IMG/VR virus record: IMGVR_UViG_3300023109_000076
Span: 1-32,067 of that record
Direction: 5' to 3' (one strand)
DNA from: a virus
Length of the DNA: 32,067 bases
The notes below the pieces were generated by a model, which saw only the letters and a list, made by a program, of their open reading frames with translations, did no database searches and was not told the DNA's origin. Positions within the stretch are counted from its first letter, which is position 1, and the number at the start of each line of letters is the position of its first letter. Shown here piece by piece: positions 1 through 8,738 of the stretch. Made by a program: the position numbers and the translations under genes.

Positions 1-147
1 TGGTATATTGAATATAATGATATGAATAAATTGATGATTAATTTTATTAAATGTGGAGAGAATAGAGAAGAATTTGGTGGAATTATGATAAGTGGAAAAG
101 AAGAATGTTTAATGGATGGATTGGAAATATATTTAGATGATAAATAA
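1..147 (+). CDS. 3' end of a cytosine-free gene, unknown product (partial)
   Basis: An open frame runs from the first base of the window to a TAA at 145-147, giving 48 residues of a C-terminus ending LEIYLDDK. I do not recognise the family. The coding strand contains no C, so the peptide has no Ala, Pro, Thr, His or Gln, Leu is only TTA/TTG, Arg only AGA and Ser only AGT. This is the same composition as the complete gene that follows at 256, so the two probably belong to one island that continues to the left of the window. The start is outside the window. Confidence that it is coding comes from the open frame, its acidic/hydrophobic periodicity and the shared bias with its neighbour. Confidence 0.6.
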   Translation, partial: WYIEYNDMNKLMINFIKCGENREEFGGIMISGKEECLMDGLEIYLDDK

Positions 148-192
148 TGTTATTTAGAATGAATATATATTAAAAAATAAATGTTAAATAAG

Positions 193-223
193 TTTGTAAA
201 TTGAAGAATTCTCCCTATATTAA
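193..223 (+). promoter_or_regulatory. Bacteroidetes-type promoter for the cytosine-free gene
   Basis: TTTG at 193-196 is followed after 19 nt by TATATTAA at 216-223, close to the Bacteroidetes vegetative consensus TTTG-N19-TAnnTTTG. A start site about 7 nt downstream would fall near 230. The only four C in bases 1-778 (211, 213, 214, 215) lie in the spacer, so they would not be transcribed. The match was made by eye. Confidence 0.45.
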
Positions 224-255
224 GGTATATTAATTAATTAAAAAAAATAAAGGTT

Positions 256-720
256 ATGAAAAGATTTGAAAAGGTATTAAATTATTTTGTTAAAAAAGGT
301 TATGTTGTTAATAATATTAATGATGAAATTGTAATGTTTAATGATGTTGAATGGAATGATTATTATGAATTAGAAGGTTATAAAGATATATGTTGTGTTG
401 AGGTGGATAGTAATTATATGAATAGAAAGAAATATGATGTAATTGTTGTGAAGAATAAAAAGGTATATGGTAATAATAATATGGATATATTATTTAAAGA
501 TATATTGAAGAAATATATTGGTGATGATAAGAAGGTATTATTGAGTGAGTTTATGAATAAATTTAATAATAATAGTTTGTTTGGTTTATTATATAATTTT
601 AGAAGTGGTAGGTGGAATGTGAATGATTATAATGATAGGTTTGAAAATTGGTGTAGAAGAAGTGGTATGTTAATTAAAGAAAAGATTAATATTAATAATA
701 GATTGTGGTTGGTTAAATAA
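256..720 (+). CDS. Cytosine-free gene, 154-aa protein of unknown function
   Basis: This complete gene has not one C in its 465-base coding strand. The protein therefore uses only fifteen amino acids: Ala, Pro, Thr, His and Gln, whose codons all need C, are absent, while the other fifteen all occur. Codons are also restricted (Leu TTR, Arg AGR, Ser AGT, Tyr TAT, Asn AAT, Asp GAT, stop TAA). The product is rich in Lys, Asn, Asp, Val and Tyr, with no signal peptide or membrane segment; it contains a Cys-Cys pair near residue 46 and Trp residues in its C-terminal third. I recognise no family. The ATG is preceded by AATAAAGGTT, the same context as the gene at 826. A host-type promoter lies at 193-223 and an AT-rich hairpin follows at 738-780, so it may be a single transcription unit. 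That it is a real gene is supported by 154 stop-free codons despite the extreme composition. Confidence 0.75.
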   Translation: MKRFEKVLNYFVKKGYVVNNINDEIVMFNDVEWNDYYELEGYKDICCVEVDSNYMNRKKYDVIVVKNKKVYGNNNMDILFKDILKKYIGDDKKVLLSEFMNKFNNNSLFGLLYNFRSGRWNVNDYNDRFENWCRRSGMLIKEKININNRLWLVK

Positions 721-737
721 TATAATAAGATATAAGA

Positions 738-780
738 GGGTATTATATATAGGTATTAATTTATTTATATATAATATACC
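738..780 (+). terminator. AT-rich hairpin ending the cytosine-free unit
   Basis: Bases 738-751 (GGGTATTATATATA) and 766-780 (TATATATAATATACC, with two extra bases) can pair as a long AT-rich stem. The C at 779-780, the first two after base 215, would pair with G at 739-740 at the foot of the stem. There is no clear T-run after it, so termination is inferred, not shown. Confidence 0.4.
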
Positions 781-825
781 TCCAGCATAGACTGATAATA
801 TAATAATGATAAACAAATAAAGGTT

Positions 826-966
826 ATGAAGCATCCATCATATAGTAAAGCATCCAATCAATACGCTAATAGATCTAATAATAAGCTCTCTAAGCAATCC
901 AAACAAGCATTAGCCGATGAGCTTAAACGCTTTCAAGAAAGACTAAAAAGCCTTGATAAGGGTTAG
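826..966 (+). CDS. 46-aa basic hypothetical protein
   Basis: ATG at 826 opens a 46-codon frame ending TAG at 964-966. The start context AATAAAGGTTATG is identical over the last 13 bases to that of the gene at 256, which supports this start. The peptide is Ser/Lys/Gln/Asn-rich in its first half and looks helical and charged at its end (LADELKRFQERLKSLDKG), so a short coiled coil is possible. Its base use is the reverse of its neighbour: I count 28 C in 141 bases, where the preceding 563 bases (216-778) have none. It faces the leftward operon across a convergent intergenic region. I do not recognise a family. Confidence 0.5.
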   Translation: MKHPSYSKASNQYANRSNNKLSKQSKQALADELKRFQERLKSLDKG

Positions 967-1015
967 ACCAATTTGATATAGTGTTGATATAACATTGCAT
1001 GCACATTGACAGTAC

Positions 1016-1088
1016 ATTTCCCTAACGGGTTGGGCACCAACGGGTTACGGCCTTACCTCTCTCCCTCAATCTGCTAGATTTTCGGTGT
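1016..1088. other. Compact, C/G-rich convergent intergenic element (possible structured RNA)
   Basis: Between the ends of the rightward 46-aa gene (966) and the leftward oxygenase gene (1112) lies a stretch much richer in G+C than its surroundings. It holds a direct repeat AACGGGTT (twice, around 1024-1047), a perfect small hairpin GTTGG-GCA-CCAAC, and a second one AATCT-GCT-AGATT followed by TTTT. These could be terminators for one or both sides, or a small structured RNA. It does not fold as a tRNA by my reading. Confidence 0.3.
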
Positions 1089-1111
1089 ATAGTTAATATA
1101 TATTTATATAT

Positions 1112-1576
1112 TTATATATTAGTCATTATCTTATGAGTCCATAAATTCAATGATACTCTTACTCCTTTAATGACTTCATCTACTCCATGTAACACATTAG
1201 ATCCATCAAATATAATGATATCTCCTTTCGTAGTGTTTATATATGTGTCTTTATCTATCTTAAATGATCCTCCTATATATGGTTCTGATATATCGCATAC
1301 TATGGTTCTTTGACTTTTTTCGTCTTTATGCATTCTTAGACCACGGTTGGGTAAGTATTGAGTAATATTGATCCAAGAGATAGTATAGTTTTCAGGAATA
1401 TATTCATTAAATGTATCGGCTATCTCATCAAAGTAACTGCCTTTATTGACGGTATATGCCTTCCAACGACCTCTTGGAGTATATAAAGCTTTAGATTTAA
1501 ACGTATTTCTTATATAGTCACAAAAATCTTGTGGTATAGCATTTTGTATGGTACTAAAGCTTTCAAGTTGTTCCAT
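1112..1576 (-). CDS. 2-oxoglutarate/Fe(II)-dependent oxygenase (prolyl-4-hydroxylase-like)
   Basis: The 154-residue product has the facial triad and 2-oxoglutarate-binding pattern of the P4H-like dioxygenases: H83-x-D85 in MHKDE, a distal H130 in NVLHGV, and R140 ten residues later in GVRVSLNLW, all on predicted double-stranded beta-helix strands. Such enzymes use O2 and 2-oxoglutarate to hydroxylate a protein side chain, a nucleobase or a small molecule, releasing succinate and CO2. Small 2OG oxygenases are common in marine T4-like phages, and their substrates are mostly unknown. It is the last gene of a leftward operon; its ATG overlaps the end of the small membrane-protein gene (1563-1694) by 14 bases. 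The fold class is fairly sure, the substrate is not known. Confidence 0.8.
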   Translation of the reverse strand: MEQLESFSTIQNAIPQDFCDYIRNTFKSKALYTPRGRWKAYTVNKGSYFDEIADTFNEYIPENYTISWINITQYLPNRGLRMHKDEKSQRTIVCDISEPYIGGSFKIDKDTYINTTKGDIIIFDGSNVLHGVDEVIKGVRVSLNLWTHKIMTNI

Positions 1577-1694
1577 TTACTAGTGACACTATAGTAAGTA
1601 TTACTGCCATAATGATGATTGCCGTTAATGCTATAGAAGCTATAGTATAAGAGTCTCTCTTAGATTTATTATCGTAATAAGGATGTTTATCCAT
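1563..1694 (-). CDS. 43-aa small membrane protein
   Basis: On the minus strand ATG at 1692-1694 opens a 43-codon frame ending TGA at 1563-1565. The N-terminal 16 residues are polar and basic (MDKHPYYDNKSKRDSY), followed by a single hydrophobic segment at about residues 17-39, which predicts a one-pass inner-membrane peptide. It lies between two leftward genes with a 6-base gap upstream and a 14-base overlap downstream, so it is likely translated as part of that operon. No family is recognised. Support comes from the clean membrane profile and operon fit. Confidence 0.55.
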   Translation of the reverse strand: MDKHPYYDNKSKRDSYTIASIALTAIIIMAVILTIVSLVNGTT

Positions 1695-1700
1695 TATATG

Positions 1701-1862
1701 TTATTTCACCAGTTCAACCCATCCATGTAATAGGCCTCCTGTTATACGATTATCTATTGTCTGGTAATCTTTTACTTTATAACAATACACAAAGTCATTT
1801 AACAGTCTATCTGTCATATCTGAGGTCTCTCCTATAACTCTATAAGTTTTACCTCTATACAT
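1701..1862 (-). CDS. 53-aa hypothetical protein (start chosen downstream of a longer frame)
   Basis: The frame is open from an ATG at 1916 (71 codons), but the first 18 codons overlap the zinc-ribbon gene at 1870-1980. The internal ATG at 1862 sits 7 bases after that gene's TGA, so I prefer it as the start; the product then begins MYRGKTYRVIGE and ends LLHGWVELVK. It has a beta-rich look with a Tyr/Val-rich N-terminus. I do not recognise it. If the 1916 start is right the two genes overlap by 47 bases. Confidence 0.5.
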   Translation of the reverse strand: MYRGKTYRVIGETSDMTDRLLNDFVYCYKVKDYQTIDNRITGGLLHGWVELVK

Positions 1863-1869
1863 AAAAGTA

Positions 1870-1980
1870 TCATTTACTCTTTCCACACCTACCGCAAGTC
1901 TTTCTATATGGTGCATTTAATGCCCCGCATTTACAATTCCATGTATTATCTACTAATTTCTCAGTCTTAAGGTCCTCCAT
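1870..1980 (-). CDS. 36-aa zinc-ribbon microprotein
   Basis: On the minus strand ATG at 1978-1980 opens a 36-codon frame ending TGA at 1870-1872. The C-terminal half carries four cysteines as C16-x-C18 and C29-x2-C32 (NCKCGALNAPYRKTCGRCG), a small zinc-binding knuckle pair of the ribbon type. Its start overlaps the end of the upstream membrane-protein gene by 14 bases and its stop lies just before the ATG at 1862, an arrangement that fits tight operon translation. Such minimal zinc ribbons can bind protein or nucleic acid; the role here is unknown. Confidence 0.6.
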   Translation of the reverse strand: MEDLKTEKLVDNTWNCKCGALNAPYRKTCGRCGKSK

Positions 1981-2161
1981 AAAGTAAATATAAGATTACT
2001 ACACCTATTATTAATGACATCCCCCATCTCTTATTCATCTTAGATTGTAACTCCTCAGGTATATGTATCTTATTATATCTTATATATACATCTTTTATGA
2101 TGTTGAAGAGAAACATCACTATGGTGAAACTTAAAACCGCTATTGTAAAGCTTTGACTCAT
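1967..2161 (-). CDS. 64-aa two-pass membrane protein
   Basis: The first gene of the leftward operon encodes 64 residues with hydrophobic segments at about 5-24 and 48-61, separated by a basic loop (around KDVYIRYNKIHIPEELQSK). This predicts a small two-pass inner-membrane protein. No family is recognised. A host-type promoter is placed so close (element ending three bases before the ATG) that the message may be leaderless. The downstream zinc-ribbon gene overlaps its end. Confidence 0.55.
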   Translation of the reverse strand: MSQSFTIAVLSFTIVMFLFNIIKDVYIRYNKIHIPEELQSKMNKRWGMSLIIGVVILYLLYGGP

Positions 2162-2164
2162 ACT

Positions 2165-2195
2165 ATAATATAAGGACTTTCTTTCAATCTACCAA
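2165..2195 (-). promoter_or_regulatory. Bacteroidetes-type promoter of the leftward operon
   Basis: Read on the minus strand, TTG (2195-2193) is followed after 20 nt by TATATTAT (2172-2165), then AGT and the ATG at 2161. Spacing and both boxes resemble the Bacteroidetes consensus. The start site would be at or next to the ATG, implying a leaderless or near-leaderless mRNA. Confidence 0.45.
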
Positions 2196-2344
2196 CATAT
2201 TGATCGAAATACTTAAATGGAACAAACGTTATATACGATAATATAGAGAGAATTTTGGTAATAAACCACTAAAACCGTAGGGGAATCGCGGGAGCGTTTT
2301 TACGCTATATAACCGTTTTAACGTACCCAATTTTTTCAATATTG

Positions 2345-2353
2345 ATATTTATA
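2345..2353 (+). promoter_or_regulatory. Candidate late-promoter element ATATTTATA
   Basis: ATATTTATA lies 13 bases before the ATG at 2367 and has no TTG box 19-20 nt upstream. The same (C/A)TATTTATA core recurs before genes at 3229, 6176, 8756, 16689 and 29327. Confidence 0.3.
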
Positions 2354-2366
2354 GTAAATAAACAGA

Positions 2367-3203
2367 ATGAATACACTCTTTGCTGTTGGTTGTAGTTTTA
2401 CATCAGGTATAAATGCATATCCAAATTACGAACTTACATCGTTTGAAAAAGAACGTCACTGGCTTCCTACACTTACAAACTTACTAGCCAAAGATGGTAG
2501 GCAGTACAAATGGGTTAATAAAGGTGTGGGTGGTATAGGTATGAAAGGTATACTTTACAACTTACTAAATATACTTCCGATCGTAAAAAGTGGGGACATG
2601 TTAATATTAGGTTCTACATATTATGATAGAATGTCTTATATAGAAAATGTTGATGAGTCACAACTTAACCAAGTAGTGATTACTCCTAAAGGTGCTGAGC
2701 AATATCTAGACGGTACAGGTCCTGATATATTTCCTGAACAAAGTAAACAGTACAACGACCTTCTGGTAACTCATTATGTAGAAAATAGTTTCTTGTGTTC
2801 AGACGATGGCATGAACTACCTACATACTGAAGGTATATTCTTAGAAAGAGCTTTTCGCAATTTGTGTGAGTTATTAGAAGCTAAAGGAGTAACCTGTTAT
2901 AGGTGGAGTAATGAAATATGGTTTGACGAAAACTTTGAATTGGTAGAAAAATGGACTAAGGATTATGTCGACGATGGACATTGGTCTCCTAATGGTAATA
3001 CAGCTGTAGGAAGATTCTTTTATTGGTGTATTAAAAATGGATATAAAAACTTTAGTTCTCAATACTTAGAGAAATGCCTTACACAACCTAGAACCTTATG
3101 GCATTGGGATCCAGAAGAAGTAAAGAACCAGCAGGAATTTTTTGATATTCATGATTTTAAGTACCATAAATTTAAAAACCCTAATGATAAACCATTTATT
3201 TAG
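2367..3203 (+). CDS. SGNH/GDSL-type hydrolase
   Basis: The 278-residue product shows the SGNH hydrolase blocks: GCSFTSG near the N-terminus with S10 as the expected nucleophile, NKGVGGIG (51-58) as the second glycine/asparagine block, and DDGHWSPNGN (202-211) giving the D-x-x-H pair D202 and H205. Members hydrolyse ester bonds of acyl groups on lipids, sugars or glycans. There is no signal peptide, so it acts in the cytoplasm or in the virion. Phage copies of this family are common in marine metagenomes and have been proposed to modify or deacetylate glycans; that is not shown here. It is the first gene of the rightward block, preceded by the candidate late element at 2345. Confidence 0.75.
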   Translation: MNTLFAVGCSFTSGINAYPNYELTSFEKERHWLPTLTNLLAKDGRQYKWVNKGVGGIGMKGILYNLLNILPIVKSGDMLILGSTYYDRMSYIENVDESQLNQVVITPKGAEQYLDGTGPDIFPEQSKQYNDLLVTHYVENSFLCSDDGMNYLHTEGIFLERAFRNLCELLEAKGVTCYRWSNEIWFDENFELVEKWTKDYVDDGHWSPNGNTAVGRFFYWCIKNGYKNFSSQYLEKCLTQPRTLWHWDPEEVKNQQEFFDIHDFKYHKFKNPNDKPFI

Positions 3204-3215
3204 AAAATAGTTCTT

Positions 3216-3224
3216 ATATTTATA
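3216..3224 (+). promoter_or_regulatory. Candidate late-promoter element ATATTTATA
   Basis: The element lies four bases before the ATG at 3229, too close for a normal leader if it is a -10 box. No TTG box is present at 19-20 nt. Weaker than the other copies. Confidence 0.25.
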
Positions 3225-3228
3225 AAAT

Positions 3229-3654
3229 ATGAAACCTATAGAACCTAAAAAGTTGTTCGACATATTTCAAGCTGATGATGAAGCTGTGTATAAAGAACAC
3301 GGTATGACCGAAGTATTAGAAAGTTCGTATGTTCTATTAGGTATGGTAGTAAGAGGTGTAGAAAACTTTCACTTAATGGATGTAATGTATTCTAAAAACT
3401 ACCCTAATGAGTATAAACGTAATAAAAAAAATATATCAATACGGTATTTTACTAAGTTATTTTCCTATCTTAAAAGAATAAAAGATAAACCAGAACAAGT
3501 AATTGCTGAATTAGAGGTAGGATTTGATTATACTCAGATAATAATGTCTTTAGATTTCCTAAGAGTATTTTTCGAAAAGATAGAACACTACGAAAAGTGT
3601 GCACTGATAAAGTCGTATATCGATACAGCAATAGTTTTCAAAGAAGATATATAA
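3229..3654 (+). CDS. 141-aa hypothetical protein
   Basis: The product is predicted to be mostly helical, with no membrane segment. Its C-terminal end, FFEKIEHYEKCALIKSYID (about 114-132), resembles the short UvrB/UvrC-type helical motif in which E-x-Y-E-x-C/A-A-x-I/L-R/K recurs, so it may be a small protein-interaction helix pair. That resemblance is only by pattern. It lies between the SGNH hydrolase gene and the lipoprotein gene, with 25 and 71 bases of spacing. I do not recognise the family. Confidence 0.55.
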   Translation: MKPIEPKKLFDIFQADDEAVYKEHGMTEVLESSYVLLGMVVRGVENFHLMDVMYSKNYPNEYKRNKKNISIRYFTKLFSYLKRIKDKPEQVIAELEVGFDYTQIIMSLDFLRVFFEKIEHYEKCALIKSYIDTAIVFKEDI

Positions 3655-3671
3655 AATAACCTGTTAATTAG

Positions 3672-3702
3672 TTGTTACTCTGATATAAAGTACCTATATT
3701 TA
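3672..3702 (+). promoter_or_regulatory. Bacteroidetes-type promoter for the lipoprotein gene
   Basis: TTG at 3672-3674 and TATATTTA at 3695-3702 are separated by 20 nt, one mismatch from TAnnTTTG. The ATG of the lipoprotein gene follows at 3726 in the context AATCAAGGTTATG. Confidence 0.5.
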
Positions 3703-3725
3703 AGTATAATAAAAAAATCAAGGTT

Positions 3726-4298
3726 ATGTTTTCAATGTTTGCACTAGGTCTCTTTCACGGGATTATTATTTTAGTTACTATTCAACTTAGTAAGTTAGTT
3801 TTTTCTTATATCAAAGCAAATGGTATAGATGAATGGGTCGGTTTACTTGTAGTTGTTATTTTACTTACTCTCAGTACTTCCTGCACTAAAGATGAAATTA
3901 CTCAAGATTTATGCGGTGACTGCCAGGTAAGGTTTGAAATTCCTTTCGAACAAGATGCTAACGGTTATTATCATGCAAAACTTTCATTTAATTCAGCAGG
4001 TGCTGCTAGATTTAACATAGATGCTTATGCTTCAACTATTGCAGATAAGGATTTATGGGAAAATGATACTCCTAACTTCTATTCTATCTTTTCAGGTAAC
4101 ATAGAACTTACTAACGATGTAGGTGTAGTTCAGCATTCTAGATTACAGCATGATAAAAGTGGTTTTACTAGACGTACAGTTGGACCAGTTCTTACAGATC
4201 ATATAGGTGATACACTAGTAGTATCGGTAGATACTCATTGGGTTTATGCACCATTGTGGGAAAATACAAAAAATACTTTAAAAATAATTATAGAATAG
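3726..4298 (+). CDS. Putative surface lipoprotein with an extra N-terminal membrane segment
   Basis: The 190-residue protein has a first hydrophobic segment at about 5-28, then a second (38-50) ending LSTSC, where C53 is a plausible acylation site. The residues after the cysteine, TKDE, match the Lys-Asp/Glu-Asp/Glu type of lipoprotein surface-export signal described in Bacteroidetes. The mature part (about 137 residues) looks beta-rich, with two further cysteines (LCGDC, about 62-65). The -3 lipobox position is Ser rather than Leu, and a 52-residue leader with two hydrophobic segments is long; there is no alternative Met between them. A phage-encoded surface lipoprotein could act in superinfection exclusion by masking a receptor, which is inference. 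It has its own host-type promoter at 3672-3702. Confidence 0.6.
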   Translation: MFSMFALGLFHGIIILVTIQLSKLVFSYIKANGIDEWVGLLVVVILLTLSTSCTKDEITQDLCGDCQVRFEIPFEQDANGYYHAKLSFNSAGAARFNIDAYASTIADKDLWENDTPNFYSIFSGNIELTNDVGVVQHSRLQHDKSGFTRRTVGPVLTDHIGDTLVVSVDTHWVYAPLWENTKNTLKIIIE

Positions 4299-4329
4299 TT
4301 GATTCTTAAAAATAAAAGTATTATCTTAT
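4299..4329 (+). promoter_or_regulatory. Bacteroidetes-type promoter upstream of the HD/sigma operon
   Basis: TTG at 4299-4301 and TATCTTAT at 4322-4329 are 20 nt apart. The 90 bases that follow are almost pure A/T and include TATAAATA at 4393-4400, identical to the T4 late-promoter core, 18 bases before the ATG at 4419. The operon could thus have both an early-type and a late-type start. Confidence 0.4.
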
Positions 4330-4418
4330 AGAATATTATTATTATTATTAATAAATATAAATTTAAAAAGATAATATATAAATATATAATTATATAAATA
4401 TATATAAAATAATCTATT

Positions 4419-5153
4419 ATGACATTATCGGCAGAAAAAATACACAAAAATTACGAAAAGCATCTAAAAATTATAGATAGCTACATAGGTGACCGTAAGG
4501 ACTCTATCAAAACTATGATTGAATCTTTAGGAGAGAACTACATTATGTCACCTGCAAGTGGTAAATCATGGTACCATAATGCTTTTCCCGGTGGATATGT
4601 CGATCATATCAATAGAGTAGTGGAATATGCGGTAAAGCAGTCAAGGTTATACGAAGAGATGGGTGGAACAATTGATTACACCGAAGAAGAACTAGTCTTT
4701 GCCGCATTATTTCACGATTTAGGTAAGATAGGTGACGGTGAATCACCAAACTACATACCTCAGACTGATAAATGGCGTCAGGATAAGCTATCAGAAATGT
4801 ATACACCTAATCCAGACCTACAGTTTATGTTAATTCCAGATAGGTCACTCTTCATACTACAGAAATTTGGTATACAAGTTAGTCAAAAAGAGTTTTTAGG
4901 TATAAGATTACACGATGGTGTGTTTGATGATGCTAATAAATCTTACTTCTTTAGTTATCAAGAAAGTTCTCGTCAAAAAACAAGCCTAATATCAGTACTA
5001 CACACAGCCGACTTCTTAGCTTCCAAGGTTGAATACGATATATGGAAGGGGAACGGTGGTTCATCCCAACCAAAAGTACAAAAAACACAGTCCTCCACAG
5101 GTAAATCAGTGAAATCTTCAGAAGGATTAAGTAAATTACTTAAAAACATATAA
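4419..5153 (+). CDS. HD-domain metal-dependent phosphohydrolase
   Basis: The 244-residue product carries the HD superfamily ligands in order: H63 (YVDHINRVV), H99-D100 in LFHDLGKIG, H165-D166 (RLHDG) and H195/D198 in LHTADFLAS. HD proteins bind one or two metal ions and hydrolyse phosphate esters of nucleotides or nucleic acids. Residues 50-60 (SWYHNAFPGGY) are typical of the branch found in T4-like marine phages, where the substrate is not established. The last 30 residues are a Ser/Thr/Gln/Lys-rich linker ending in a short helix. The stop at 5151-5153 is followed one base later by the next ATG, so it is co-transcribed with the membrane protein and sigma factor genes. Confidence 0.8.
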   Translation: MTLSAEKIHKNYEKHLKIIDSYIGDRKDSIKTMIESLGENYIMSPASGKSWYHNAFPGGYVDHINRVVEYAVKQSRLYEEMGGTIDYTEEELVFAALFHDLGKIGDGESPNYIPQTDKWRQDKLSEMYTPNPDLQFMLIPDRSLFILQKFGIQVSQKEFLGIRLHDGVFDDANKSYFFSYQESSRQKTSLISVLHTADFLASKVEYDIWKGNGGSSQPKVQKTQSSTGKSVKSSEGLSKLLKNI

Positions 5154-5154
5154 A

Positions 5155-5475
5155 ATGACAGAAATTTTTACAATACACAACATTATAATCGGGGTTTTAG
5201 TTGTTATTCTAAGTTTTTTATTCTACCTTTTAAGAAACTTACTAATCAAAGTGGAAAAATACGAAGATGTAGTAAGAGACCAAGTTGAATATTTACAAAA
5301 CATATCAAAACTAGTAGCACAGTCGCAATCAAACCTTAAAGACATAGATTCACGTGGGGTATTTGAATCAGACGATGAGGTAGGAGAGTTTTTCAAAATT
5401 TTAAAGAGTATACAAGAAGAACTCAACCGTTACATGCTCCCCGAAAACTATGGCAAGGAAGAAATCCAAAGCTAA
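5155..5475 (+). CDS. 106-aa membrane-anchored coiled-coil protein
   Basis: A single hydrophobic segment at about residues 8-30 is followed by a charged, heptad-like helical region (VEKYEDVVRDQVEYLQNI) and a conserved-looking stretch GVFESDDEVGEFFKILK (about 68-84). Proteins of this layout are common, and unnamed, next to the late sigma gene in marine T4-like phages, from memory of the pattern. It overlaps the sigma factor gene by 26 bases, which suggests translational coupling. A role in tethering a factor to the membrane is possible but not supported further. Confidence 0.6.
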   Translation: MTEIFTIHNIIIGVLVVILSFLFYLLRNLLIKVEKYEDVVRDQVEYLQNISKLVAQSQSNLKDIDSRGVFESDDEVGEFFKILKSIQEELNRYMLPENYGKEEIQS

Positions 5476-6154
5476 TTACTTTACAAAAGAAACAGAAGAG
5501 TACATAAAGAAGTATAACGTATCTACAGATCACGAATACCGTGCTAAGATATTTACAGACCACATCTACTTACCTTTTTACAAGTTAGCCGAAAACATCA
5601 TACATACTTTTAAGTTCTACTATACAGATGTTGAAGCTATAGAAGATCTTAAACACGAAATCGTATCAGTACTACTAGAAGAAAAGATAATGAAGTTTGA
5701 CCCAACTAATGGTGCAAAAGCATTTTCTTATTTCGGTACAATCGTCAAAAGGTGGTTAATTAACTACAATAATAAGAACTATAAGAGACTTAAACAGGTA
5801 GGCTCCTTCACAGAAATGGAGGAAAGTTATGAAGGTCATCGACAATACGATGATGACTATAAAATAACCCTTTCTAAATTTATAGACTCATGGTGCTCTT
5901 CAGTATACGACAGATTAGATGAACTTTTCTTTAAAGATAACGAAAAAGTAATTGCAGATGCAGTACTCACATTATTTAGAACTCGTCACGATATAGAAAT
6001 ATTTAAAAAGAAAGCACTCTACATCTATATAAGAGAAATGACTGATTGTGAAACTCCTCACTTAACTAGAGTAATATCGATACTAAAAGAAGACTTCAAG
6101 CAAAAGTATCAAGTACTTTATGACCAAGGGTTGATTACGAATAAACCTTTGTAA
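5450..6154 (+). CDS. Late-transcription sigma factor (T4 gp55-like)
   Basis: The 234-residue protein has a sigma region 2-like core at about 40-115: an acidic helix with DLKHEIVSVLLEE, then KFDPTNGAKAFSYFG (82-96) and IVKRWLINYNNKNYKR (98-113), matching the -10 recognition and melting helices of the T4 gp55 group. No region 4 is evident, as expected for gp55, which needs a co-activator instead of a -35 contact. It would redirect host RNA polymerase to late promoters of virion genes. It sits just before the 15-kb virion block, the first gene of which has a candidate late element 9 bases before its ATG. Confidence 0.75.
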   Translation: MARKKSKANYFTKETEEYIKKYNVSTDHEYRAKIFTDHIYLPFYKLAENIIHTFKFYYTDVEAIEDLKHEIVSVLLEEKIMKFDPTNGAKAFSYFGTIVKRWLINYNNKNYKRLKQVGSFTEMEESYEGHRQYDDDYKITLSKFIDSWCSSVYDRLDELFFKDNEKVIADAVLTLFRTRHDIEIFKKKALYIYIREMTDCETPHLTRVISILKEDFKQKYQVLYDQGLITNKPL

Positions 6155-6157
6155 CTC

Positions 6158-6166
6158 TATTTATAA
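6158..6166 (+). promoter_or_regulatory. Candidate late-promoter element CTATTTATA
   Basis: It lies just after the sigma factor stop codon (TAACT-CTATTTATA) and 9 bases before the ATG at 6176. There is no TTG box at 19-20 nt. The same TAACTCTATTTATA string is present before the gene at 29327. Confidence 0.4.
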
Positions 6167-6175
6167 AGAAACAAT

Positions 6176-6535
6176 ATGAGCTTAGATAAGGAAATATTCA
6201 GCGGAAAGACTCTATCTGACCTCTTTGGAGAAATTCACGACAACTCAACCAATACCAGAGCACAAATTAAGGCTTTGATAGGTGAACTTAAACCTCTTAT
6301 AGAAAATGTGGGAGACGCTACCTTAATTGTTCCTATGATAAAGGAATATATGGAGATAGGTGTTAGGAATGATGAACATCTTATAAAGTTAGCTACTGTC
6401 ATACAAAGAATTGAATCTGCAGCAGCAAAAGGAGAAACAAATGAGATGTTTGACTTTTCTGAATTGCAAGGTCTATTAGAAGAGTCACAAGACACAGTAG
6501 ATGAAGTCGAAGATAACCAAGAGGAAGAAGAATAA
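6176..6535 (+). CDS. 119-aa conserved phage protein, helical with acidic tail
   Basis: The product starts MSLDKEIFSGKTLSDLF and is predicted all-helical up to about residue 90, then ends in a very acidic tail (DTVDEVEDNQEEEE). The pattern LIGELKPLIENVGDATLIVPMIKEYMEIG is one I associate with a small unnamed family sitting between the late sigma and baseplate genes in marine T4-like phages. Function is unknown; the position suggests a virion-assembly or late-gene role. Its TAA shares a base with the ATG of the next gene (TAATG). Confidence 0.6.
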   Translation: MSLDKEIFSGKTLSDLFGEIHDNSTNTRAQIKALIGELKPLIENVGDATLIVPMIKEYMEIGVRNDEHLIKLATVIQRIESAAAKGETNEMFDFSELQGLLEESQDTVDEVEDNQEEEE

Positions 6536-7659
6536 TGTTTGGAAGAGTAGCAAGCCTATACGATACAATCTCCAGTGAATTTAGCTCACCAGATGTATTT
6601 CATGCCAGAGTAGTTGATGTAATTATGGATGCCAATCATCCTGACTACGAAACATTCGGAGCAACAAACTCACTTTACGGTGTTAAGTACAAACCTATAA
6701 ATTCTAACGTAGATGAAGAAGCAGACGAACAGTTTTTATTTGCTTACTGTCAACGTAATGATTCGATAAAAGTACCCCTAAAAGGGGAAGTAGTAGAAAT
6801 AATATCTCAACCTGATGAAGATAGGGATAAAGATTCTACTCAAACTAAAGATTACTGGCGTAGTATAGTAAATTTTTGGAACCACCCTCATCATTCGGCA
6901 AGTCCAATAACTGAAGAAAATGATTTTGGAGATGATTTCGAAGAAAAACAAACTATAAACCCACTACAACTCTTTCCAGGTGATGTAGCTATAGAAGGTA
7001 GACACGGTAACACTCTTAGATTTGGCGGTACTAATTTTGATTCTAATCCTTTTTCTGAAGATGACAACAACGGTCAACCGTTTATAATTCTTAAAGCTGG
7101 ACAAAAAGAAGGTGAAGATTCAATAGAAACTGTAGTTGAAGATCCTAATGAGGATAAATCTTCGATATATATGACTTCAGATCATATAGTAGAGTTAACT
7201 CAAGCTAACGAAAAAAGAGATGCATTTGAGGAAGAACCTGAAATGGCAGATGTACACAAAGGACCTCAAGTAATAATAAACTCAGGTAGATTGTTTTTTA
7301 ATGCAAGAGATGAAGGTGCTTTTATTTCTGCAAATGAAATGATAGGTCTTAATGCCAAAGTAGTAGGTATAGATTCTGATGACTACATTGGGTTAGATAG
7401 TAAAAAGATTTACTTAGGTACTGACGCATTCAATGAAGATGAACCTGCACTAAAAGGAGATACAACCACAGTTTGGTTAGACGATTTAGTGAGTTTGTTA
7501 GAGGCATTAGCTAATACTATGGCAACAACACCTCCAGCTCCTCCAACCTACATAGCAGCATTAGTAAAAGAAGGAATAAAGCTAAAAGCTCAGTTACCTA
7601 AACTTAAGAATTTACTTAACAACCTACACTCTAAAAAAGTGTTTATAGATACTAAATAA
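6535..7659 (+). CDS. Baseplate hub/spike protein with OB-like N-terminus (gp5-like)
   Basis: The 374-residue protein opens with a beta-rich domain (ARVVDVIMDANHPDYETFG... VPLKGEVVEII, about 24-90) that resembles the OB-fold region of gp5/VgrG-type spikes. This is followed by NFWNHPHH (112-120), the segment GRHGNTLRFGG (155-165) and a run of short beta units, then a helical C-terminus (VSLLEALANTM onward). In contractile tails such proteins form the central hub and membrane-piercing spike. No lysozyme domain is visible. Its position just before the gp25 and gp6 homologues fits a baseplate role. The assignment to gp5 is by pattern and position, so moderate. Confidence 0.5.
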   Translation: MFGRVASLYDTISSEFSSPDVFHARVVDVIMDANHPDYETFGATNSLYGVKYKPINSNVDEEADEQFLFAYCQRNDSIKVPLKGEVVEIISQPDEDRDKDSTQTKDYWRSIVNFWNHPHHSASPITEENDFGDDFEEKQTINPLQLFPGDVAIEGRHGNTLRFGGTNFDSNPFSEDDNNGQPFIILKAGQKEGEDSIETVVEDPNEDKSSIYMTSDHIVELTQANEKRDAFEEEPEMADVHKGPQVIINSGRLFFNARDEGAFISANEMIGLNAKVVGIDSDDYIGLDSKKIYLGTDAFNEDEPALKGDTTTVWLDDLVSLLEALANTMATTPPAPPTYIAALVKEGIKLKAQLPKLKNLLNNLHSKKVFIDTK

Positions 7660-8738
7660 TGCCATACGTTAATATACCTCCTAGTTTTTTACCCTCTGCT
7701 ATTGCTAAGATAACTGGCAAAATAGAAGGTGAAATAACTGGTGCAGTACTTAGTAAAGCTAAAAGCCTAATAGATAAAATGCAATCGGAAGGTTGCCCAA
7801 AAGACTTAGCAAGGTTACAAAACCAAGTCAACGGGTTAAATACCATGATAGGGTCAATAGACGGGAGGTTAGCAAAGTTTCAATCACTTCCTAAGAAGTT
7901 AAAAGGGCCGTTGAATGGACTTAAAACCGCTTTAAAAATTATATTAGCCATTCCTATACCTCAGGCAGTACCCCCTGGTATTGGTTTACCGATTAATATA
8001 ACTACTAAGTTTGCTGATATGCTTCATCTTATAAAAGAGTTCATTAGACAAATATCAGACGACGTAGATGCATTAACCGTTATTACTAAAGGCTCTTCAG
8101 TACAACTAAAATCCATAACACGCAACCTACAGAAGTTACAAATAGGAACAAAAGTGTGTATACTTGAAAAAGAGTTAGAAAATCTTCAAGAGGAAGAAGA
8201 ACTTACATTTGAAGACATGGTTAGATTAGGATTAATATCTGATGATGGAGACTTAATTACCTCTAGCTTAAGAAGAAGAGCAATTGATTTAGACACTTAC
8301 GGGTCATTATCTGTTAACGCAATAGCAAACAAAACAGGACTGACCCCACAGCAAGTAGCTGAACAGTTAAAAAACAAACAGGATATTACCCCTGACAATG
8401 ATATAGAAAAAGATTTTGTAAAGGTATTAGACAATCTTGATAATGCAACACATAGTGGTATAAAAGCAAAATTAAAAGATGTTCTTGATTCCTTTGTTGA
8501 CAACGACGATACAACTAAAAGCACAGGAGATAAATTTACACATATAGGTCCAAACGGTATACTTTACAAACTGGACATTATAAAAGATCCAGATTCTCCT
8601 ACAATCGCTCCTAGAAGATTTGCTGTAGCAATTGACCCTAGTAACGTAATAGTACTTAGAGGACCTAAATCATTTAGTTCTTCTGTAGAAATACTTTTAA
8701 ATGAAATTAAATTCAGAATAGATAATCAACTTCCATAA
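7659..8738 (+). CDS. 359-aa putative tail/baseplate structural protein
   Basis: The product has an N-terminal part rich in Gly/Ile/Pro and helices (residues 1-120, including a hydrophobic stretch LKIILAIPIPQAVPPGIG at about 91-108), a helical middle, and a Pro/Asp-containing C-terminal part. The segment NKTGLTPQQVAEQLKNK (about 224-240) looks like a small helix-turn unit. No signal peptide is present. It starts on a TAATG junction from the spike-like gene and belongs to the virion block by position. I do not recognise a named family. Confidence 0.5.
   Translation: MPYVNIPPSFLPSAIAKITGKIEGEITGAVLSKAKSLIDKMQSEGCPKDLARLQNQVNGLNTMIGSIDGRLAKFQSLPKKLKGPLNGLKTALKIILAIPIPQAVPPGIGLPINITTKFADMLHLIKEFIRQISDDVDALTVITKGSSVQLKSITRNLQKLQIGTKVCILEKELENLQEEEELTFEDMVRLGLISDDGDLITSSLRRRAIDLDTYGSLSVNAIANKTGLTPQQVAEQLKNKQDITPDNDIEKDFVKVLDNLDNATHSGIKAKLKDVLDSFVDNDDTTKSTGDKFTHIGPNGILYKLDIIKDPDSPTIAPRRFAVAIDPSNVIVLRGPKSFSSSVEILLNEIKFRIDNQLP

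Follow-up and report, generated by a model that had tools for sequence, protein, structure and literature searches.

The window, as we call the whole stretch of DNA analysed here (32,067 bp, a complete IMG/VR record), begins with two genes whose coding strand is nearly devoid of cytosine (Table 1). Positions 1-778 comprise 328 A, 293 T, 153 G (19.7%) and 4 C, the latter only at positions 211, 213, 214 and 215, and both gene X (256-720) and the visible part of gene Y (1-147) are free of C, in agreement with the counts given in the initial annotation of this DNA. The two C-free runs of the region lie at 1-210 and 216-778, the second (563 nt) being the longest in the window; beyond position 778 no such run exceeds 88 nt, and the longest G-free run has 50 nt. 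It had been argued that neither chance nor AT bias is sufficient to produce such a composition. Markov simulations (20 x 32 kb), in which the longest C-free run was 62 nt at order 1 and 72 nt at order 3, bear this out and rule out a chance origin. The region is truncated by the contig start; positions 1-147 are 90% identical to the end of a 138-aa C-free gene (L002:4494-4910), and at the homologous locus of an 80-kb contig one unbroken C-free run of 1,079 nt spans both genes. The C-free stretch indeed covers two genes, as originally proposed.

Table 1. Features of the cytosine-free locus at the start of the window.
Feature	Position	Strand	Remarks
Family Y gene, 3' end	1-147	+	No C in 147 nt; 5' part lost at contig start
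Predicted Bacteroidetes-type promoter of gene X	193-223	+	Motif match: TTTG 193-196, 19-nt spacer 197-215, -7 box TATATTAA 216-223
Gene X leader (predicted 5' UTR)	224-255	+	Without C
Gene X	256-720	+	154 aa, zero C
Terminator-like hairpin	736-782	+	MFE -19.3 kcal/mol, z -4.45; C returns only at the end of the 3' arm (779-783)
46-aa gene with ordinary C content	826-966	+	28 C; end of the C-free unit

All four C are situated in the spacer of the predicted X promoter, and the second C-free run begins exactly where the -7 box does, at position 216. Homologous X promoters in contigs L002 and L003 have the form TTTG-N19/20-TATATTTA, and the terminator-like hairpin has the same architecture in L002, L003 and L018 (z -4.2 to -5.2). 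The gene that follows was said to carry 28 C in 141 nt, which proved correct, and its homologue (L003:843-989) likewise contains C. A search of Rfam with positions 1-1200 of the window gave no match. Just downstream of the C-free unit, on the minus strand (1112-1576), a small 2OG-Fe(II) oxygenase is encoded (Pfam E 1.6e-6, with a weaker match to Tet_JBP), which could act in nucleic acid or protein modification.

Because gene X has no C, its product is devoid of Ala, His, Pro, Gln and Thr. The AlphaFold2 model of X (pLDDT 82.4, pTM 0.72) has a predicted winged-helix-like domain in its C-terminal half, and an alpha/beta fold is predicted for Y (pLDDT 86), both models being of fair quality. Neither protein could be assigned with confidence to a family of Pfam or PHROGs, and no structural match reaching E 0.001 was found in PDB for the two models, or in BFVD for that of X. 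A relationship of Y to the phage antitoxin Dmd was considered and rejected, as the matches were weak (E about 1) and were taken as chance. No X was found in the bacterial genomes searched, and tblastn of X, Y and other C-free proteins against 50,697 cultured phage records gave no credible relative.

The rest of the window is occupied by T4-like tail and replication genes, which are collinear with those of Flavobacterium phage immuto. Its gp6-like baseplate wedge protein is 56% identical to the immuto counterpart over 604 aa, and the genes for the gp25-like protein, primase, exonuclease and an HD-domain protein are found in the same order. On sequence grounds, the window phage is a T4-like phage of the Immutovirus lineage; its host would be a member of Bacteroidetes, which fits the TTTG-N19-TAnnTTTG promoters and A-rich leaders. 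Among cultured phages, the one relative is gene 128 of immuto (MW353175, QQO91807.1), a hypothetical protein gene homologous to Y (E 2e-4 to a protein of contig L069, and hhalign E 2e-5 to the Y profile). It is located in the same accessory region, ahead of the baseplate genes, and like the C-free genes it stands far below its genome in C content (1.4% versus 15.3%); however, with 5 C in 357 nt it is C-poor rather than C-free, and immuto differs from the window also in that it has no recognised X gene. In immuto, at L103:18607-37015, a 7-deazaguanine DNA modification pathway looks complete (QueC, QueD, QueE, FolE, QueF and DpdA).

The phenomenon extends far beyond this single locus. A search with X led to three contigs, the above-mentioned one of 80 kb (89% identity) and two others of 25 kb (75%) and 12 kb (97%), and X homologues are C-free in all 9 further contigs. 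Homologues of Y in independent metagenome contigs lack C as well. In a codon-blind profile search, in which conserved X peptides were back-translated into all codons, 8 contigs were retrieved, and in 8/8 the X gene lacks C; the same kind of search with family 3 gave 4/4. The question of whether C is lost in all homologues of the 154-aa protein, raised when the locus was annotated, is answered in the affirmative for those found. An independent sample of 80 loci (727 kb) was obtained via the neighbouring HD-domain gene. A C-free run of at least 180 nt was present in 8 of these 80, and a G-free run of at least 80 nt in none; in L069, a C-free run of 1,890 nt covers four genes inside a 43.8-kb contig. 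Five relatives (L056, L063, L088, L093 and L094) have no C-free run despite 8-10 kb of upstream sequence, and the module is therefore accessory. X falls into two clades which do not match the phylogeny of the HD gene: the window is 92.6% identical to L002 in X and 79.0% in HD, and 67.3% identical to L018 in X and 80.3% in HD. From this discordance, the module seems to have passed between phages while remaining C-free. Contigs frequently end within a C-free gene, as at position 1 of the window and at the ends of L003, L004, L018, L023, L049 and L100, perhaps due to low complexity or to near-identical modules shared in the assembly graph.

Unrelated genes of the same kind were found by searching 2.9 million viral contigs for stretches in which a promoter and a start codon precede 160-170 C-free bases. 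Three such pattern scans gave 8, 14 and 8 C-free stretches, and in total 30 phage contigs, including the window, bear C-free units; the number rises to 31 if L127, which nearly duplicates L125, is counted. The genes concerned belong to at least 20 protein families, each C-free wherever it was seen; both totals are lower bounds, as the patterns demand particular promoter and leader words. An eight-gene cluster in L125, recurring in L127, has one C in 1,959 nt, and L151 has a C-free run of 1,354 nt. The units of L146/G040 and L191-L195 have sigma70 promoters and Shine-Dalgarno sites, and G040 has its closest cultured baseplate relatives in T4-like phages of Sinorhizobium and Caulobacter (39%). 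A distant C-free X is encoded by L192 (E 5e-9); a 142-aa protein of G040, similar to X by eye, was dismissed as its relative at an hhalign probability of only 1.4%. In the larger contigs, C content of genes is bimodal: 21 genes have no C at all, few have 0.5-4%, and the main peak is at 14-15%. L146 also has, on its minus strand (870-1121), a divergent transcript whose own coding strand lacks C over 252 nt before it turns C-rich (Pro/His-rich) within the gene; it adjoins a plus-strand C-free unit of 1,493 nt.

What is free of C at these loci is the predicted transcript, from its start to the stop codon or terminator, the untranslated leader included. The run that starts at the -7 box of the window ends in the 3' arm of the hairpin, and the same start or end was found in L002, L003, L018, L025 and L069 where the contig reaches it. 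Over 55 C-free ORFs, C amounts to 12 of 17,151 nt in coding sequences (0.07%), 0.5% in leaders, 2.8% in promoter spacers and 3.5% in the 60 nt after the stop codon, at 14-23% G in these compartments (23.2% in coding sequences). In a comparison set of 203 ordinary genes sharing this promoter type, the four values are 13.7, 10.2, 14.3 and 13.1% C; the promoter spacers flanking C-free units are thus also depleted of C, about 5-fold. The clusters of G039 and G046 contain C solely in the promoter boxes that separate neighbouring C-free genes. C profiles step at gene edges, which rules out a smooth effect of location. The C-free leaders rule out a cause acting purely at the protein level, intergenic stretches free of C likewise speak against a composition bias of the proteins, and a DNA-wide cause is disfavoured because C is retained just outside the start-to-stop interval. 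Avoidance of restriction at the DNA level, one of the causes initially considered, does not fit: the C-free stretches are bounded as transcription units are, and C is normal elsewhere in the genome. The gene class that we propose is delineated accordingly, by a complete or almost complete lack of C between the predicted start of transcription and the stop, with G at its normal level, and by maintenance of this state in homologues found without codon bias, such as those of X and family 3.

Codon and residue usage is informative as to how the C was lost. Ser makes up 5.85% of residues in the C-free genes and is encoded solely by AGT, a codon which accounts for 26% of Ser codons in ordinary genes; all Arg codons are AGA or AGG, and the residues that rise in place of the lost ones are Asn, Asp, Glu, Lys and Tyr. 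The sigma70-type genes behave likewise (Ser 6.9%, entirely AGT). In 28 partly C-poor genes, the depletion is alike at codon positions 1, 2 and 3 (0.24, 0.29 and 0.24) and affects every neighbour context (0.13-0.58 of normal), most strongly before and after G, and therefore acts on the base and not on one motif. Strand-specific deamination had been named among the candidate causes; C would change to T in the course of transcription or in R-loops, and only tolerated alleles would survive. In its favour, it would track the direction of transcription, a divergent C-free stretch is present in G040, and Cys is enriched 2.3-fold in C-free genes. However, conversion of ordinary genes by C-to-T changes predicts 13.5% Ile, 9.8% Phe, 10.7% Leu, 2.1% Ser and 2.4% Arg, whereas 7.8, 5.0, 8.1, 5.9 and 4.6%, respectively, were observed; replacement of TCN by AGT and of CGN by AGA is unreachable through such changes; and C persists in terminators and in promoter spacers, including those between adjacent C-free genes of G039 and G046. 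Deamination is contradicted by these results, and we consider it very unlikely. APOBEC-type hypermutation, which resembles the C-free units in strand-specific loss of C, differs from them in the same codon and amino-acid usage. The proteins are adapted to C-free coding and not passively mutated. We infer selection against C in mRNA, and since avoidance of C overrides protein constraint, the cost of each C would have to be large.

Several mechanisms might impose such a cost. Destruction or modification of RNA at C by a nuclease, toxin or editing enzyme of host or phage, with only C-free messages surviving, would leave the same transcript-level pattern; that C is tolerated beyond the stop codon, or when base-paired in the terminator stem, would be in line with it. 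On the other hand, every neighbour context is depleted, if unevenly, while RNase toxins usually require a motif, C is retained in most genes of these phages, and no candidate enzyme was identified; we regard this mechanism as improbable, though less so than the other alternatives. A somewhat smaller probability is given to avoidance of G in the template. 7-Deazaguanines, made by the DpdA pathway, would replace G in the DNA of these phages, and a C-free coding strand equals a G-free template, on which RNA polymerase would read no modified G. The pathway (DpdA, QueC/D/E, FolE) would act on precisely the complement of RNA C; genes for DpdA and preQ0 synthesis occur in all three near-complete genomes examined that have C-free or C-poor genes of the Y/X type (immuto, G041 and G042), and both the intact G of the non-template strand and the boundaries tracking transcripts would be explained. 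Unlike the C-free trait, however, the pathway is also present in a relative without such genes, G011, whose 73 kb include DpdA but no C-free unit; a search of the sigma70-type phage G040 (55 kb, probably partial) gave no DpdA, template G is normal in the other genes of these phages, and 7-deazaguanine modification of DNA is described as protection from restriction (PMC6884629). DpdA as the sole correlate was rejected on account of G011, and also because C-free contigs, among them the window and G001, are mostly fragments not covering the DpdA region. The Pfam TGT profile missed even known copies of DpdA and was uninformative.

Avoidance of RNA structure or of Rho is less probable again. Without C, neither G-C pairs nor C-rich Rho sites can form, and C returns only in terminator stems; yet neither purpose requires removal of every C at the expense of Ala, Pro, Thr, His and Gln, and, as Rho sites need C-rich stretches, a single C should be tolerated. 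That the window contig and several of its relatives begin inside a C-free gene might raise suspicion of an artefact, and a chimaeric assembly or bisulfite-converted reads had been named as findings that would overturn the whole observation. We find this scarcely credible: the units come from independent contigs of many metagenomes with normal C elsewhere in the same contigs, the 1,890-nt run is embedded in a 43.8-kb contig, the frames are intact and use AGT for Ser, and the codon-blind sample of 80 loci contained C-free runs and no comparable G-free ones.

The explanation which we tentatively prefer, with a confidence somewhat short of even, is that these short accessory operons are cytosine-free transcription units selected for CTP-independent expression. 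Messages that need no CTP were among the candidates proposed from the window, and this one remains the best fit, since in unrelated genes the unit, leader included, begins where transcription starts and reaches as far as the stop codon or terminator. RNA polymerase could copy such genes end to end without inserting CMP, each C in the RNA being strongly selected against, and they would stay expressed when CTP is scarce or a chain-terminating analogue is present. C-less cassettes of in vitro transcription assays are templates of this kind, transcribed without CTP until the first C, with the difference that they are man-made, whereas the C-free units are natural coding genes. C is also the only base that can be dropped from a protein gene, because the start codon ATG and the stop codons between them use A, T and G; therefore, any pressure towards a reduced alphabet would end in loss of C. 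A cost per C that applies from transcription start to stop, leaders included, points to the making or keeping of RNA, and the near-total absence of C implies a large cost, like that of a chain terminator. Prokaryotic viperins (pVips) make such a compound, ddhCTP, which terminates phage RNA chains (review, PMC12926258). This is a known defence in which insertion of a C analogue stops phage RNA, and a C-free message would be immune to it; pVips differ from the C-free units in being host enzymes and not a class of phage genes, and no published C-free escape genes for viperins were found. X, Y and the other products might then be early counter-defence or take-over proteins, needed before the rest of the genome is expressed; as to X and Y, whose predicted folds have no significant structural match, a role as early regulators or in counter-defence is a guess. 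Slightly less probable still is a more specific version, in which phages of at least two host groups keep CTP-free 'bunker' genes, purged of C for expression under a cytidine-directed block of RNA synthesis (ddhCTP or exhaustion of CTP), with products that may lift the block.

Several points count against CTP-independent expression as the selected property. Clusters of up to eight genes are many for one counter-defence, and any penalty on RNA C or template-strand G predicts the same pattern. The searches gave the products no recognised function or fold. Moreover, the divergent transcript of G040 lacks C over merely its first 250 nt or so, becoming C-rich inside its gene; the roughly 5-fold depletion of flanking promoter spacers is a further point against; and since partly C-poor genes exist, the constraint does not apply to every gene in an all-or-none manner. 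Partial depletion (2-10% C) is frequent in genes close to C-free units, as in G001 (oriented 56.6-58.5 kb) and G041 (oriented 89-98 kb); these are possibly genes losing C.

A gene class that avoids one of the four bases appears to be new as far as the literature shows, no report of C-free phage genes being found in full texts (a scope to which subscription papers and preprints do not belong). Some force makes each C in these messages costly enough to override the use of Ala, Pro, Thr, His and Gln. If this force is a CTP analogue or shortage, C-free genes would mark phages that face such a defence, together with their counter-defence proteins; if it is a C-specific RNA nuclease or an effect of template bases, they would point there instead. 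C-free units can be detected from sequence alone, and the cultured phage immuto offers an entry point.

A separate case is contig L143 (G037), where positions 1-8409 contain 34 C in 8,409 nt at 18% G. It is apparently a circular element of 8.3 kb (with a direct repeat at its ends) that encodes two serine recombinases and an HTH_17 protein. Its intergenic DNA is also C-poor, and hardly any G would be present in a possible antisense gene; thus, its asymmetry tracks the DNA strand, unlike in the phages. Finally, a 20-mer, ATGAAATAGTTTGAAAATAT, flanked by AT inverted repeats, is identical at L069:2204-2223, L100:271-290, L128:4043-4062 and L145:11174-11193, following C-free genes in different phages, and it is possible that this element is a C-free terminator or regulatory hairpin.
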